Source: Methanocalculus taiwanensis
Lineage (GTDB): Archaea; Halobacteriota; Methanomicrobia; Methanomicrobiales; Methanocorpusculaceae
DNA: 64,000 bases
NCBI RefSeq assembly: GCF_024372745.1
Contig: NZ_VOTZ01000010.1
Span: 1-64,000 of the forward strand
Reading direction: 5' to 3'
Shown here: positions 49 to 16,743 of the stretch, piece by piece
Numbering within the stretch: the stretch's first letter is position 1
Layout of the letters: every line of letters begins with the position of its first letter
Notes under the pieces: model-generated
The model's database searches: none
What the model was told of the DNA's origin: nothing
What the model saw: only the letters and a program-made list of their open reading frames with translations
Translations under genes and position numbers: made by a program

Positions 49-179
49 GTGGTAATGGCGGCCATAGCGGTGGGGATACACCCGGACTCATTCCGAACCC
101 GGCAGTTAAGTCCACCCGCGTCGAACATGGTACTGAGGTACGAGAGTCCTCGGGAACTGTTCAACGCTGCCAATACCAC
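49..179 (+). rRNA. rrf: 5S ribosomal RNA
   Basis: The segment has the archaeal 5S pattern. A terminal stem pairs the start near 49 (gtggta) with the end near 178 (taccac), and between them lies the conserved core ggggatacacccgg followed by ccgaacccgg and aagtccaccc. Ends are set from the terminal stem and may be off by one to three bases. The order tRNA-Cys then 5S is unusual, because many euryarchaeal rRNA operons have 5S before tRNA-Cys. The 23S gene, if linked, lies outside the window to the left. Confidence 0.93.
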
Positions 180-422
180 CCCCCTATTATGAAAACAACT
201 CTTCTCAGAATGCTTTTCCAAAGACGCCTGCGTCTGTTTCTTCTTTAAATATACTCTCGCTGATTTCAGCATGCATTCCCTTTCCAGAGTACAATGCTCC
301 CGAAAAGAAAAGAAAGAGGGGTCGGATAGTTTTTGGGTTTTGCGGGAAACCCTGACCAGAGAACGGGATCAATGAAGCGGAACTCCCGTAATGCTCCGGC
401 ATATACTACTCAGACTCGAGGG

Positions 423-430
423 TATATAAA
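423..430 (+). promoter_or_regulatory. TATA box of clsA
   Basis: The sequence tatataaa at 423-430 is a near-perfect archaeal TATA box on the + strand. It predicts transcription from about 450, giving a leader of roughly 90 bases before the clsA start at 539. Confidence 0.65.
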
Positions 431-455
431 CAAAAGGAGCGGGGCGCGAAAGTGA

Positions 456-9040: not shown

Positions 9041-10291
9041 CTATTTCTCTCCACTCACGACAAGCCCATAGGGATGGGCAATAACCTGCAACCGGGAAAA
9101 CCCGATCCCGTCAAGGAGTGTCTCCAGCTCTTCCTGTGTATACGATGCCCGGACAGATGTTTCAAAACCCTTCCGGATTTCTGGTTCGAGGCAGGAGTCC
9201 CGCATATACCCAAATATCTCCGGTGAGAGATCACGGCGGAGATCGCTGACAAATACCACTCCTCCCGGCCTGATTACCCGCAATATTTCGGAAAAGACCT
9301 GCCCTGCATTCTCCCATTCATGCATGGATCCATTGGAGAAGGCGCAGTCGAAGGTATTATCGGGAAATGGCATCGAAAGGGCATTCCCCTCTTTATAGGC
9401 CGCACGATCCGAATGCTGGTATTCACGGGCATTTCTCTCTGCAATTGCAATCATTGCAGGGCTGATCTCAAGCCCCGTCAGATGGGTTCCCTCTGTATGG
9501 GTGAGCCATTCAAGCCCGAGATACCCCGGTCCCGGCCCGATCTCAAGTGCATGGTCGCCTTCCCGTGTGCACCCTGCCAGCTCATGTACCGGCAGGTGCC
9601 CCTCATCACGGAGACCTCTTTGCATACGATCATATTCTTCTGTTGTTACCTCGTCCTGAATTCCGTCACAGGTTTCAGGAATCCTTGATTCAATCTTCGG
9701 TGTGGTGTTCATCTCATCTCCCTCCCATCCTGCCGATACATACCTTGCATCCACCGCCTCTTCAAGCCGTACCAGCCGCCCCTCTCTTCGGAATATCAGC
9801 GGAACCCGTTCAAATCCGCTTTCTCTCCTGAGCGACCGGACAGAGGAGGATAGCGAATCGCTGTCATATACTCCTGTAAAGCGAGCACAGAGATCCGCAA
9901 AAAGCAGTTGTTCGTCTAAACTCAGGTGTGCCATACGTACCTCAAGGAAACCAAACAGCTTCTCTTCGGTATCAAGAATCCATTCCTCACCTTTTTCGGT
10001 CGGCACAACTAAAATGCTCCTCCTGTTCTCTGTATCCTGAACCCGCCTGACAAATCCTTCCCGCTCGAGATAATTCACAAGATCCGTTGCGGAACTTGGG
10101 GAAATATCCAGCATCCCGGCAATGTCTCCCATACATATCTTTGAGAAATACGCAGAATACAGCACTTCAATCCCACCTGGGCTGAGCAGGTTCTTTCTTC
10201 CCCTGTCTTTCCCAAAGATCATGTTGATTGCGATTGATACAAATCCGAGGGAGAGCCTTATTCGTGCAGTTGGATCCATGATCCCTCTCAT
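9041..10291 (-). CDS. MarR-type regulator fused to SAM-dependent methyltransferase
   Basis: This 416-aa protein has two parts. Residues 1-130 form a MarR-like winged helix, with recognition-helix region DISPSSATDLVNYLEREG and wing RRVQDTENRRS. Residues 225-416 form a class I methyltransferase, with motif I ALEIGPGPGYLG near 252 and FDCAFSNGSMHEW. An internal ATG at 9712 (residue 194) has a strong ribosome binding site just before it, so the enzyme half may also be made alone. A palindrome at 10315-10332 suggests self-control. The gene is divergent from the lipoprotein gene at 10415. The methylated substrate is unknown. Confidence 0.85.
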   Translation of the reverse strand: MRGIMDPTARIRLSLGFVSIAINMIFGKDRGRKNLLSPGGIEVLYSAYFSKICMGDIAGMLDISPSSATDLVNYLEREGFVRRVQDTENRRSILVVPTEKGEEWILDTEEKLFGFLEVRMAHLSLDEQLLFADLCARFTGVYDSDSLSSSVRSLRRESGFERVPLIFRREGRLVRLEEAVDARYVSAGWEGDEMNTTPKIESRIPETCDGIQDEVTTEEYDRMQRGLRDEGHLPVHELAGCTREGDHALEIGPGPGYLGLEWLTHTEGTHLTGLEISPAMIAIAERNAREYQHSDRAAYKEGNALSMPFPDNTFDCAFSNGSMHEWENAGQVFSEILRVIRPGGVVFVSDLRRDLSPEIFGYMRDSCLEPEIRKGFETSVRASYTQEELETLLDGIGFSRLQVIAHPYGLVVSGEK

Positions 10292-12354: not shown

Positions 12355-12597
12355 TCAACAGGTTACAGAACCGGGAACATACCTGCGGACATCAATAAGC
12401 GTACCATTCTTTGCACTCCGCTCAGCCAACACCATGATCTCATGGGTGATCGCCTCATCCACATAATCTTCCTCGCAGTTCATGCAGACCTCTGCCAAAA
12501 CCTCCTTCACCACCAGGGTGAAACCTTCCCGTTCGAAGGTGATCGTGGTCTTACCGGACCGTATCTCTCCACTCTTACAAATAACACACTTCATCAT
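12355..12597 (-). CDS. YgiT/MqsA-type zinc-finger protein
   Basis: A small protein of about 80 aa. It has two CxxC pairs (CVIC at the N-terminus and CMNC about 40 residues later) around a basic beta-rich segment, as in the N-terminal zinc domain of MqsA-type antitoxins. I chose the ATG at 12597 because gaggag lies immediately upstream; a longer frame begins at 12624. The usual helix-turn-helix half is missing and no toxin gene is adjacent. It may be an orphan antitoxin or a stand-alone zinc protein. The transposon-like end nearby marks a gene-exchange spot. Confidence 0.7.
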   Translation of the reverse strand: MMKCVICKSGEIRSGKTTITFEREGFTLVVKEVLAEVCMNCEEDYVDEAITHEIMVLAERSAKNGTLIDVRRYVPGSVTC

Positions 12598-12669
12598 CTT
12601 CTCCTCATCTTGTTCTCTCTCCATTGATCTGGATCCGGTTCATATGCAGTGATGATAATGATCTCCCCC

Positions 12670-14625
12670 TCATCTTGTCTGCCAACCTCTCTTCTCCCAA
12701 GAGAATACCGGCATCACCTCCTCATATGCCCGTTCCAGCAGCACCCTGTAGTATGCAGGATCCGCAGTCGCCGCCTCCCATGGGGGATCGGCGACCAGCC
12801 GCTTCCCGTCACGGACAACATACCCGATCTCCATCCCGGCTTCAACAGCAACACCTGCCATCCCGTAGGCACGGATTGCTGAACCTTCGATGCACCGGTT
12901 TTTGTACTCAGTCCTGCTCACCCGCCGGGTGATGACGAGATCCGCAATTGCCGCAGATGAAAGGCCGGAGACCGCCTCATGGAACAATTCCTCCACGTCC
13001 CCGGCAAGATACGGAAGTTCGGCTGCACACTCCGCCCTTTCAAACACCGAGAAGATTTCCTCCTGAAATCTGCGTATATATGGCGGGGTATCGCCCCTGC
13101 GGGCGGCAACCCCCCGGATCTTCATAGTGCCGTCTTCAAGCCTCCCGAAATACCGGTTATAGGCTCCCGTTCCGTCAGACATCGGGAGGAATGCAATCCA
13201 GCGGTATGCTTCAGATTCGGTTGGAATATTTGTAGCAGCCTCCGTCTCCCGTACAAACCGTTCGATATCGCCCCCGGCAACCCAGAGCGAGTCGACAATC
13301 CCGTGAAGAACATGGCACCCGCACTCCTCAGCGCACTCTTTTGCGGCAATCAGAATCTCCCGGGCATGCCGGGTGATCGCCTCGTGTACCGCAATACATC
13401 CGAACTTCGCGTTCCGATATCCGGTATAGCCAAAACTGGTGACCAGCATCCATTTCAGGAGGCTGTCCATCCCGGCATATTGTTTATCCACCTTCTTCAG
13501 CGCTTTTGTCTTCAGCCTGAGCCCGACCACCGGCGCAAGTACCGATGCCAGAAATCCCTCATCTCCGCCACTGGCAACCGTCTCGGGGGAGAGATTTTTG
13601 CCGACGATGATCGAGGGGTACATGGAGGTAAAATCGACCTGCACAACATTGTCATAGACGCCCGGGATGGGCTGGAAGATCATACCTCCCTTATCTGCCT
13701 CACGGAGGGTGGCAATCGGGCGGGTAGCCTCTGCATGCCATTTCCGGAATGGCACTGCAATTCCCCGCCTGATCGCCTCATAGTTCTCGTAACCTGAGAT
13801 GAGGGTTCCGGGCGTGAGCCTGGCGGTCAGGTTTGGGGCAAGCCCGGTCATCCGGGACGCAAGCAGCACTCCGGCGATCCCGCTCTCGCGGTATGTGAAA
13901 CTCCGGGCAGCATCAATCAGGCACCTCCCCTCCGGGATAAGCGCTCCTTCCCGGTGGACCACCCGCCCGTAACTCCAGTATGATCGTGCCGAGAGGCGGC
14001 TGTATCTCCCGTTTCTGCTGATAAAAAGCAGTATTCCATGCTCTTCTGCGGAAGAGACGAGCGCCGGCATCCAGTAGTCGGCATGGGGAAAGAGGATCAG
14101 ATCCGGGTTTCGGTCATCAAGGGCTGCCGCAAGCTCACCAAGCATATCGGGAAGAGATCCGGTGATTTTCTTCCCATCCACTGACATACTGTTCACTTTC
14201 CGGCTCCGGTACGGAGGATCAGCCACCCCGATCTCCATCATCGCCAGGCTCCTGTCAAAGGAGGGGGAGAACCTGTCCTCTCCCGGGAGTGCGCAGGCGG
14301 TGAGTCCGCGCTCTGCCAGGAACCGTTGTTCGGGACGGAGGTCGAGATTGTAGATTTTTGCGCTGTACCTGCTCTGCTCCTCGATCAGTCCTGCAACCTT
14401 CCGGGACGCGGCGATTGCATACCCCTCCTCTTCCGAGAAGATCGTCTTCACCCGGCAGGGGGAAAGCCCGAACCGCTCATCCAGCCCATCCAGCATATCA
14501 CGGTGAAGGTGGGGATCATCCAGGGTGAAGAGGAAAGCAGGGGTATAGGCGACTCTTTTTGATTCCCCGTCTCTTCCCCAGAACCGGATCCCTCCTATAT
14601 CTGCAGATGTGTCAAGGATCCACAT
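12670..14625 (-). CDS. polB2: Divergent family-B DNA polymerase, PolB2-like
   Basis: A shortened family-B polymerase of 651 aa. Motif A is DFTSMYPSII near residue 335, motif B is KWMLVTSFGYTG, and motif C is degenerate: HGIVDSLW replaces YGDTDS but keeps the second, catalytic aspartate. The expected exonuclease motif DIE appears as MMEIG, so proofreading is probably lost. These traits fit the archaeal PolB2 group, long thought inactive and later linked in Sulfolobus to error-prone damage tolerance. It overlaps the small gene at 14612 by 14 bases. It is unlikely to be the main replicase. Confidence 0.78.
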   Translation of the reverse strand: MWILDTSADIGGIRFWGRDGESKRVAYTPAFLFTLDDPHLHRDMLDGLDERFGLSPCRVKTIFSEEEGYAIAASRKVAGLIEEQSRYSAKIYNLDLRPEQRFLAERGLTACALPGEDRFSPSFDRSLAMMEIGVADPPYRSRKVNSMSVDGKKITGSLPDMLGELAAALDDRNPDLILFPHADYWMPALVSSAEEHGILLFISRNGRYSRLSARSYWSYGRVVHREGALIPEGRCLIDAARSFTYRESGIAGVLLASRMTGLAPNLTARLTPGTLISGYENYEAIRRGIAVPFRKWHAEATRPIATLREADKGGMIFQPIPGVYDNVVQVDFTSMYPSIIVGKNLSPETVASGGDEGFLASVLAPVVGLRLKTKALKKVDKQYAGMDSLLKWMLVTSFGYTGYRNAKFGCIAVHEAITRHAREILIAAKECAEECGCHVLHGIVDSLWVAGGDIERFVRETEAATNIPTESEAYRWIAFLPMSDGTGAYNRYFGRLEDGTMKIRGVAARRGDTPPYIRRFQEEIFSVFERAECAAELPYLAGDVEELFHEAVSGLSSAAIADLVITRRVSRTEYKNRCIEGSAIRAYGMAGVAVEAGMEIGYVVRDGKRLVADPPWEAATADPAYYRVLLERAYEEVMPVFSWEKRGWQTR

Positions 14626-14839
14626 CTCGTTCCTTCACAAGCTCAATAAAGACCGAAAAGACTGCAGCTTCAAGAGGATCATCGAAGGCATAGAACCCCT
14701 CTCCGGTATGGGCGCGGGCCATTTCGGCGAGGCGGATGGCATAGGGCTGTTCCTCCCTCCTCAGTGCCCGGCCTGCCCGTTCCCACCTCCGGGCAATCTC
14801 GTTTACTCCCTGCCTGACACTTCCGATACTCCGCCCCAT
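14612..14839 (-). CDS. Small helical protein of the PolB2 cassette
   Basis: A 75-aa charged, mostly helical protein with no motif I recognise (central region NEIARRWERAGRALRREEQP). It overlaps the RecA-like gene upstream by one base at 14839 and the polymerase gene downstream by 14 bases, so all three are translationally coupled. As I recall, the Sulfolobus dpo2 operon also holds a small protein between the RecA-like gene and the polymerase. Function is unknown; it may be an accessory subunit. Confidence 0.68.
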   Translation of the reverse strand: MGRSIGSVRQGVNEIARRWERAGRALRREEQPYAIRLAEMARAHTGEGFYAFDDPLEAAVFSVFIELVKERDVDP

Positions 14840-15342
14840 CAGAATGCCCCCAGTGTCGCCTGCCCAAAACGGCTGGCACGGACATTCTGCTTCCGCACCG
14901 GTGCTTCTTCGGGTGCGAGGGTGATGATCCGGTCCGCATAGGCTGCCATCTCCCCGAAGAACCGATCCGGAACCGGCGTGTACAGGATCACAAGTGATCC
15001 TGAGGCGGCTTCAGAAATCACCTTCCCGATCGCAGCAGCCATACTGCTCCCCCCGGATTCAAACAGGGTTGGATCATGCTCGATGAAGATGATCGTATGG
15101 GTGGCCTCCCTCAGGATCGTAAGGAGCTGGTGGGCGGTGAATGCCCGCCTGACATCGAAGGTGGCGCTTCTGTCCCCTGCCCGTGTCAGCAGGCGGGAAC
15201 CGTTCCCGGAGATATACAGAAACAGGTACCGCTTCAATTCGGGATGCTCTGCAAAGAGGCTGATCATCGCTTCCTCCGGGGCAACAACTGCTGCAAATGT
15301 CCCGGTTCTGAGGGTGATATATGGTGCAAGTCGGATCTCCAT
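14839..15342 (-). CDS. RecA-like protein without a P-loop (PolB2 partner)
   Basis: A 167-aa protein resembling a trimmed RecA/RadA core. The strand ATHTIIFIEHDP near 105 resembles a Walker B region, followed by SLVILYTPVPD as a later core strand. The place for Walker A reads RTGTFAAVVAPEEA, without GxxxxGK[ST], so ATP hydrolysis is unlikely. It is first in the three-gene cassette and probably assists the polymerase. The RecA relationship rests on weak similarity plus gene order. Confidence 0.55.
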   Translation of the reverse strand: MEIRLAPYITLRTGTFAAVVAPEEAMISLFAEHPELKRYLFLYISGNGSRLLTRAGDRSATFDVRRAFTAHQLLTILREATHTIIFIEHDPTLFESGGSSMAAAIGKVISEAASGSLVILYTPVPDRFFGEMAAYADRIITLAPEEAPVRKQNVRASRFGQATLGAF

Positions 15343-15404
15343 ACCAACCTATCTGGCGGACTTGTGTATTGATACTCAGTGCACGGAGTGCGAAAGTGAA
15401 GGGG

Positions 15405-15435: not shown

Positions 15436-16743
15436 ATGATACCGATGAATATTACAGTGTCACGAAATGAGGGAGTTGTCGTCTTTACACCGGATGGCAG
15501 GCTTGACGGGCATGGAGCCGGGATCTTTGATGAGGCGATACAGTCGGCATTCCATGATGACGATTCGGCAGCGGTTGTTGACATGTCGTTGGTTGAGTAC
15601 CTCTCAAGCGCCGGTATCCGTACCCTCCTTGCCCTTGCAAAGGAGGTGAAACGGCGGGGCGGCGTCATGGCACTTGCGGGGGTGCAGGAGTATCCGATGA
15701 AGGTGCTGAAGATGGCGGGCTTTCATTCGGTCTTTACGATTGTACCCACCGTTGGCGAAGGGCTCCTGGCCTGTGGGAAAGACGGCCTGGCCCTTTCGCT
15801 AATTGATGAACTCTCTGCTCCCTCAGAAAAACACGGCGATGTCTCATACCAGGTAGAGCGGGCAGGAACCGGCACTGCACGCCTGAAGGTGCGGGGGAGC
15901 TTATCCACCCTCCTTCATGCACGGATCACGCGGGAGGATCTGGTGGAATCCACTTTTACGTCAATTAAATACTCAATCGGGCTTGGTGCGCTCAGCCCCG
16001 ATGCCGGCTCGGCCCTTCCGCTCCTTGGGGAGATGATCACCCTCCACGGCGCGATGGTCTGGCTCCCGACCGATGGAAACGACACCCCGGACTTCCTCGC
16101 ACCGGCAGGAGAGGACGTTGGGATACCGGTCTATACCGCTTTCAATATCACATTAGAAGGACCCTTCCACGAATACATCTCCTTTGAATCCGAAGATCCT
16201 GATGGCATCTCTCTTGAAGATCTCTATCGGCAGCTCTTCTCGCGTGCAAAGGAGAAACAGAAGAAATGTAATGGCATCATCGCCCTTGCTATAGCCGGTG
16301 TTACTGCAGGGATGACCGGTTCAGGGCTCGCCCGCTCTCCCCTGAAAGAATACTCCGGTGGACTCAAAGGAACCATCATGGATGAGGATGCAATTGGTGA
16401 ATGGTGCTCGGTAAACCCGATCCCCCATCATATCGGTGACACCCTCGTCTCGTTCGGTGTTGGAGTGGATATAACCGCCGAACTCTCTTCCTATGATCCG
16501 GTTGCCCTCCATTCGCTTGCCTATCTTCACCCGGCACACAAAGGTACCGCCGATCAACAGCTCCATAACCACGGTGTCATCTTCCGTGGCGTACCCTGGG
16601 ATAAAAACGCACATCTTGAGAAGATGATCCAGACACTGCTCCAGGAGGCGGATGTTGCGGATATGCGCCATCTCTTAAACACCACGAGGTTCCGCCGCGG
16701 AAAGATTGGAGTGGCATACATTAGTGAGGTCACAGAAGAGTAA
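15436..16743 (+). CDS. STAS-domain protein with an unassigned C-terminal region
   Basis: A 435-aa protein. Residues 1-110 are a STAS domain with the serine site YLSSAGIRTLLALAKE. A linker near 130-150 is followed by about 285 residues that I do not recognise. That part contains repeated G-rich turns (SIGLGALSP, GITAGM-like stretch) and a conserved-looking NHGVIFRG and WDKNAH. It may be an output or sensor domain of a switch protein. Divergent from the PolB2 cassette. The ATG at 15436 fits the TATA box; an ATG at 15445 is possible. Confidence 0.75.
   Translation: MIPMNITVSRNEGVVVFTPDGRLDGHGAGIFDEAIQSAFHDDDSAAVVDMSLVEYLSSAGIRTLLALAKEVKRRGGVMALAGVQEYPMKVLKMAGFHSVFTIVPTVGEGLLACGKDGLALSLIDELSAPSEKHGDVSYQVERAGTGTARLKVRGSLSTLLHARITREDLVESTFTSIKYSIGLGALSPDAGSALPLLGEMITLHGAMVWLPTDGNDTPDFLAPAGEDVGIPVYTAFNITLEGPFHEYISFESEDPDGISLEDLYRQLFSRAKEKQKKCNGIIALAIAGVTAGMTGSGLARSPLKEYSGGLKGTIMDEDAIGEWCSVNPIPHHIGDTLVSFGVGVDITAELSSYDPVALHSLAYLHPAHKGTADQQLHNHGVIFRGVPWDKNAHLEKMIQTLLQEADVADMRHLLNTTRFRRGKIGVAYISEVTEE

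Follow-up and report, generated by a model that had tools for sequence, protein, structure and literature searches.

Three overlapping genes encode the components of a PolB2 mutasome

Here we analyse a three-gene cassette which encodes a family-B DNA polymerase, PolB2, and two partner proteins, together with the promoter box that precedes it, in a 64,000-nucleotide stretch of Methanocalculus taiwanensis DNA (contig NZ_VOTZ01000010.1, positions 1 to 64,000), referred to as a whole as the window. In the list of open reading frames (ORFs), three consecutive minus-strand ORFs with small overlaps run from window position 15342 to 12670 in the order iRadA, PPB2, PolB2; the PPB2 ORF overlaps that of iRadA by 1 nucleotide (nt) and that of PolB2 by 14 nt. 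The original prediction, made from the sequence, was of three overlapping genes in a probable methanogen, and both parts were borne out, by same-strand ORFs with these overlaps and by the source, a Methanocalculus genome. The features of the locus are as follows:

14839 to 15342, minus strand: iRadA, 167 amino acids (aa), RecA/Rad51 fold without Walker A (AlphaFold, Foldseek, residue conservation)
14612 to 14839, minus strand: PPB2 (arCOG07300-type), 75 aa, N-terminus MGRS (29-sequence alignment)
12670 to 14625, minus strand: PolB2 family-B polymerase, 651 aa (NF004416, model, Foldseek)
13594 to 13644, minus strand: PolB2 motif A, VVQVDFTSMYPSII with flanks, catalytic D331 (alignment with PolB3 and 22 PolB2 sequences)
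13288 to 13305, minus strand: PolB2 motif C, HGIVDS, with H441 and D445 kept and the first Asp replaced by Ile (alignments; HxxxD pattern of PolB2, PMC8764526)
13690 to 13695, minus strand: D(K/R) motif of PolB2, DK at residues 311-312 (PolB2 alignment)
14842 to 14862, minus strand: putative PCNA-binding peptide QATLGAF at the iRadA C-terminus (conservation and predicted disorder)
15388 to 15398, minus strand: promoter box CACTTTCGCAC, 55 bp before the iRadA ATG (shared with PolB2-operon and radA promoters)
15368 to 15374, minus strand: TATA-like element TATCAAT (conserved spacing from the box)

The first protein had been described as RecA-like and devoid of Walker A. It indeed has no P-loop, and its AlphaFold model (predicted local distance difference test score, pLDDT, 83.6; last 21 residues, 147-167, predicted disordered with pLDDT below 50) matches RecA, Rad51, bacterial RadA and KaiC in Foldseek with E of about 1e-4 and a template-modelling (TM) score of 0.5-0.6. 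The profile comparison with RadA paralogs that had been suggested was unproductive for iRadA: compared profile to profile with RadA of 25 genomes, it gave no signal above column-shuffled controls, and the iRadA and PPB2 profiles found chance matches only among PDB sequences. The kinship of iRadA with RadA is thus seen by fold comparison where sequence profiles fail, in line with the severe decay reported for one group of these RadA relatives (PMC4104785). Residues G14, R66, T69, E88, D90 and D126 of iRadA are invariant. In its C-terminal QATLGAF, Q161 and L164 are invariant and T163 is at least 90% conserved among 33 iRadA homologues; the conserved Q and L follow the pattern of the PCNA motifs reported for iRadA (PMC11791011), which makes this a putative PCNA-binding peptide. 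The small helical protein belongs to a conserved family with an MGR[ST] start, and the alignment of this N-terminus identified it as PPB2-type, with M1, G2, R3 and S4 at least 90% conserved in the 29 sequences. Its MGRS corresponds to the MGRT arm of the PPB2 described in PMC11791011.

PolB2 is present in all 8 Methanocalculus genomes and in 0/25 genomes of the family's other genus. Within the order as a whole, 66 of 150 genomes carry it, and these represent 27 of 35 genera. iRadA is kept 5' of PPB2-PolB2 in 41/45 loci, and the order iRadA-PPB2-PolB2 is kept in most loci, across Methanomicrobiales and Methanotrichaceae. An operon kept in dozens of genomes rules out a chance arrangement, and the frequency of PolB2 across genera together with the kept gene order makes the cassette ordinary for this order. 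A 2014 study already described operons of PolB2, iRadA and arCOG07300 (PPB2) from archaea and bacteria (Makarova et al., PMC4104785), so that the proposed sharing across archaeal phyla holds while its novelty does not. In 2025 a "PolB2 mutasome" was modelled as a heteropentamer with a PPB2 trimer and a Rad51-like contact between PolB2 and iRadA (Timinskas et al., PMC11791011). The cassette is a further example of this published system, common in the order: it agrees in the three components, gene order, MGR[TS] arm, D(K/R), HxxxD motif C, decayed exonuclease and clamp-type peptide of iRadA. Apart from the MGRS start of PPB2, in place of the published MGRT, nothing essential in the proteins differs from the published description. 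A viral origin found no support, as a scan of viral contigs with iRadA gave no relatives.

PolB2 keeps motifs A and B, has an altered motif C and appears to have lost proofreading

The proposal of a short family-B polymerase agrees with a score of 815.6 bits against NCBIfam NF004416 (PolB2 equivalog, cut-off 516) and with a match of the 651-aa protein to Pfam DNA_pol_B. Modelling of the polymerase, also proposed, gave a structure with pLDDT 90.7 which Foldseek matches to the KOD/9N polymerases (TM about 0.75, E about 1e-33). To read the motifs, this PolB2 was aligned to the PolB3 of the same organism and to 22 further PolB2 sequences. Motif A retains its Asp (D331 in DFTSMYPSII) and motif B is intact. 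The predicted replacement in motif C is seen against the organism's own PolB3, where the motif is YGDTDS; it is HGIVDS here (HGIVDS or HGIVDC among PolB2), with Y changed to H, the first D to I, and the second D, D445, kept. Of the catalytic aspartates said to persist in motifs A and C, the one in motif A and the second in motif C are therefore in place and the first in motif C is lost. D331, H441, D445 and most of motif B are invariant across 38 PolB2 sequences. The exonuclease motif regions, also predicted to be degraded, lack in the sequence alignment the acidic residues of active family-B enzymes; judged in this way, PolB2 is a proofreading-dead family-B polymerase. The D(K/R) motif, present in 22/23 aligned PolB2 sequences, is predicted to contact the PPB2 arm (PMC11791011).

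In the 8 Methanocalculus genomes we found no Y-family polymerase (PF00817), though most relatives in the order have one. PolB2 is probably the sole dedicated translesion polymerase of Methanocalculus, because no Y-family enzyme was found there. Across the order, 44 genomes carry both PolB2 and PolY, 22 PolB2 alone, 42 PolY alone and 42 neither. Mutual exclusion of the two in the order was rejected in view of the 44 genomes with both; what holds is that Methanocalculus as a genus lacks PolY.

A common promoter box precedes the PolB2 operon and radA

We compared the upstream regions of 60 non-redundant PolB2 operons. The commonest 6-mer upstream of iRadA was ACTTTC, found in 51/60 operons, while over 100 shuffles the highest count for a 6-mer was 12. 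Within 80 bp of the start codon, 50/60 operons have the strict form ACTTTC[AG]C (shuffle mean 0.2, maximum 2), and the box CACTTTC[AG]C stands 54-62 bp before iRadA in 50 of the 60. In most of these 50 boxed operons a TTAT consensus starts 26 nt 3' of the box, and the intervening sequence varies. In divergent iRadA genes, those of families f30 and f36 and of two haloarchaeal-type loci (L346, L359), the box stands 60-81 bp before the gene.

radA, too, is preceded by this box in 25/25 genomes from across the order, PolB2-less genomes included, with a TATA-like element about 24-28 nt after it. The initiator orc1-1 has it in 1/30 cases and class-2 orc in 0/20, and class-3 orc paralogues carry it in 7/20 strictly plus about 4 in weaker form. 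The background density of the box is 0.03 per kb and strand. As related genomes are not independent, formal p-values for such counts are overstated; the contrast between radA and orc1-1 is drawn within one set of genera.

Two further groups of loci were seen in the course of this comparison. Three PolB2 operons from a single other family (L044, L052 and L053; Archaeoglobus-type, an uncertain assignment) carry the variant TCACTTGCAnyCGGGGGTC at about the same place. Stand-alone iRadA-like genes with no nearby PolB2 occur at loci L169-L177; L176 is an iRadA-PPB2 fusion, and the box recurs close to the start of the gene at L172, L173, L174, L176 and L177. No partner polymerase was recognised by eye beside such solo genes in PolB2-less genomes.

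In Methanocalculus the box precedes repair and SOS-type genes

Genome-wide box counts were obtained by pattern search. Each of the 8 Methanocalculus genomes, of about 2 Mb, contains 9-21 copies of CACTTTCRCNC, against 2-12 for the reversed pattern. The genes behind the box are radA (8/8), the PolB2 operon (8/8), RPA (7), an orc1/cdc6 paralogue of 386 aa (6) and an RNase_H_2/HhH nuclease (6), followed by a GyrI/SbmC-like gene (4), a radical-SAM gene related to TIGR03916 "putative DNA modification/repair" (4), a YdjM-like membrane protein (3) and Transposase_31 (Rpn-type; 3). In E. coli the SbmC and YdjM families are LexA-controlled SOS genes. With the same box on radA, RPA, the orc1/cdc6 paralogue and the repair/SOS-type genes, the PolB2 operon would be one member of a damage regulon.

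The methanogen box resembles the Sulfolobales damage-response element

In Sulfolobus, a non-palindromic hexamer, A(N)TTTC, located 5' of the B recognition element, is essential for ultraviolet (UV)-inducible promoters (PMC5817253). Orc1-2, whose targets are its own promoter and further damage genes, has this hexamer as the core of its binding site (PMC9738581). The methanogen promoters show the same non-palindromic core, ACTTTC, 5' of the core promoter (iRadA 50/60, radA 25/25), and the Sulfolobales damage network likewise includes the dpo2 operon and an orc1 paralogue (PMC5817253, PMC9738581). The most constant target of the euryarchaeal box is radA, whereas the Sulfolobus damage genes in the sources cited are orc1-2, tfb3, ups, ced, dpo2 and the herA-nurA operon. 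The Sulfolobales hexamer lies at -44 to -39 from the start site and the box here 26 nt from the TATA-like element; gauged from the latter, the methanogen box is probably about 6-10 nt further upstream.

We rate the promoter box and its regulon in methanogens, as a variant of the archaeal response of the DNA-damage-responsive element (DDRE) type, as the new part of this work; neither was noticed in the original prediction. They are not described in the accessible text of PMC11791011 and PMC4104785, and in the open-licence papers searched we found neither a methanogen box or regulon of this kind nor any damage-response cis-element from archaea outside Sulfolobales. There is a likeness to the bacterial LexA/SOS system in that a recombinase, a translesion polymerase, a single-stranded-DNA-binding protein and the SbmC and YdjM families stand under one box. 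The box itself is unrelated, however, and an Orc1-type activator is presumed here in place of a cleavable repressor; no LexA family member turned up, though no search was aimed at LexA.

Proposed function of the cassette and alternative explanations

The best-supported function, by analogy with S. islandicus Dpo2, is a role in translesion synthesis or mutagenesis, as originally suggested. Dpo2 is a robust polymerase without proofreading, an efficient lesion extender, and is needed for damage-induced mutagenesis (PMC7390963, PMC8764526). According to the published descriptions it belongs to the same subfamily, has the same pattern of motif-C substitution and shares an operon with iRadA and PPB2. 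Damage induction of Sulfolobus dpo2 is also documented, since 4-nitroquinoline 1-oxide raises the S. islandicus dpo2 operon about 20-fold (PMC10470591). A difference is that Sulfolobus possesses the Y-family polymerase Dpo4, while none was found in Methanocalculus.

We consider it probable that the locus is a euryarchaeal PolB2 mutasome placed in a damage-type regulon, most likely under an Orc1/Cdc6-type activator. PPB2, through its MGRS arm, and iRadA, a Rad51 homologue that would have lost ATP binding, may hold PolB2 in a complex, which the C-terminal QATLGAF of iRadA would dock on PCNA. The complex would be made after damage and recruited to stalled forks, where PolB2 could extend distorted primer ends past lesions at the cost of mutations. 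The CACTTTC[AG]C box, about 26 nt 5' of the TATA-like element, would control the operon and radA and, in Methanocalculus, also RPA, the orc1/cdc6 paralogue and several repair/SOS-type genes. As with Orc1-2 in Sulfolobales, the leading candidate for the regulator is an Orc1/Cdc6-type activator. A damage-responsive, box-dependent regulon appears most likely in view of the Sulfolobus hexamer and Orc1-2, the induction of dpo2, the UV response of the euryarchaeon Halobacterium, in which radA1 is the most induced gene and an RPA operon is also induced (PMC1224876), and the enrichment of orc1/cdc6 genes near archaeal polB2 (PMC11791011). Of this picture, the analysis shows the three proteins with their motifs and folds, the conserved operon, and the box with its fixed position and the genes behind it, while assembly of the complex, contact with PCNA, translesion synthesis, induction by damage and control by Orc are inferred.

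Several observations count against this interpretation. The strict box is missing in 10/60 operons and, in the upstream stretch examined, from most haloarchaeal-type loci; of the class-3 orc paralogues, no more than about one in three to one in two have it. The methanogen box is also longer (CACTTTC[AG]CMC) and rich in C and stands at a greater distance from the TATA element than its Sulfolobus counterpart, and the match of hexamers across phyla could be a coincidence. Loss of one motif-C Asp would also be compatible with an inactive enzyme. That PolB2 is catalytically dead, and that the complex serves stalled forks or origins in a structural or regulatory capacity, as the 2014 study reads the family (PMC4104785) and as the lost first motif-C Asp and exonuclease motifs would allow, we regard as improbable: across 38 sequences the Asp of motif A, the second Asp of motif C and most of motif B do not vary, which is not expected from decay without selection, and Sulfolobus Dpo2 is an active polymerase with the same substitution (PMC8764526). 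Only slightly better odds can be given to a genuine box regulon that serves as a replication or growth-phase element of DNA-metabolism genes and not in damage. The replication-linked radA, rpa and orc fit such a role, but the box is nearly absent from the initiator orc1-1 (1/30) and absent from class-2 orc (0/20), the Methanocalculus set includes translesion polymerase, SbmC-like, YdjM-like, nuclease and DNA-repair-type radical-SAM genes, and Halobacterium radA1 and rfa are UV-induced (PMC1224876).

It is very hard to see the box as a general core-promoter element, uninformative on regulation. Its fixed distance 5' of the TATA-like element would suit one, but 9-21 sites per genome of about 2 Mb (2-12 in the reversed control) over a background of 0.03 per kb and strand are at odds with it, as are the boxless orc1-1 and class-2 orc promoters, which indicate depletion from housekeeping promoters. 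A stronger contender, though one we hold at somewhat below even chances, is a real damage regulon under some regulator other than an Orc1/Cdc6 paralogue, with a likeness of ACTTTC to the Sulfolobales element that arose by convergence. The greater length and different spacing of the box speak for it, and an orc paralogue boxed strictly in 7/20 genomes could be a target and not the regulator. Against it stand the identical hexamer core in the same orientation 5' of the core promoter (PMC5817253), the enrichment of orc1/cdc6 near polB2 mentioned above, and the box on the orc gene in 6/8 Methanocalculus genomes, reminiscent of Sulfolobus Orc1-2, which binds its own promoter (PMC9738581).

A broader proposal, to which we give somewhat less than even odds, is that euryarchaea, including methanogens, have an SOS-like regulon acting through CACTTTC[AG]C. 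Its members would be radA, RPA, the PolB2 mutasome and an Orc1/Cdc6 paralogue that controls itself, and it would share its ancestry with the Orc1-2 circuit of Sulfolobales. Such homology across phyla would rest on a six-base core and is not established; if true, the damage-response circuit would predate the split of the main archaeal lineages. As the sequence of the box and the genes behind it are at hand and its hosts Methanocalculus, Methanothrix and haloarchaea can be cultivated, a coordinated euryarchaeal SOS-type response becomes directly testable. Two predictions arise: damage should induce the PolB2 mutasome in methanogens, like Dpo2 in Sulfolobus, and in Methanocalculus, where no Y-family enzyme was found, the mutasome should serve as the dedicated mutagenic polymerase.

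Other boxed elements and neighbouring genes

The window contains a second copy of the box ahead of a candidate RNA, and the surroundings of the cassette contain further genes:

443 to 453, minus strand: second promoter-type box copy, 5' of a candidate RNA that points towards the end of the rRNA operon
286 to 453, minus strand: candidate small RNA, apparently box-driven
54 to 175, plus strand: 5S rRNA
9041 to 10291, minus strand: MarR-like helix-turn-helix part and S-adenosylmethionine-methyltransferase-like part, read by eye
12355 to 12624, minus strand: 89-aa YgiT/MqsA-type zinc-finger protein just 3' of PolB2, resembling the N-terminal half of an antitoxin
15436 to 16743, plus strand: STAS-domain protein, divergent from iRadA

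The STAS-domain gene and iRadA have a 93-bp promoter region in common; the long C-terminal part of the STAS-domain protein is without a Pfam family. A conserved ORF of ~55 aa (MQSRTFSYLTARA...RIIIA*) lies directly 3' of the box at L252, L200, L280 and L274. The candidate RNA at 286-453 matched no Rfam family. It is conserved in several Methanocalculus genomes and was also found at L205, L285, L262, L263, L266, L273 and L277, with a GCC[AG]GAG...CTCTGG hairpin followed in most by a T-rich tract.

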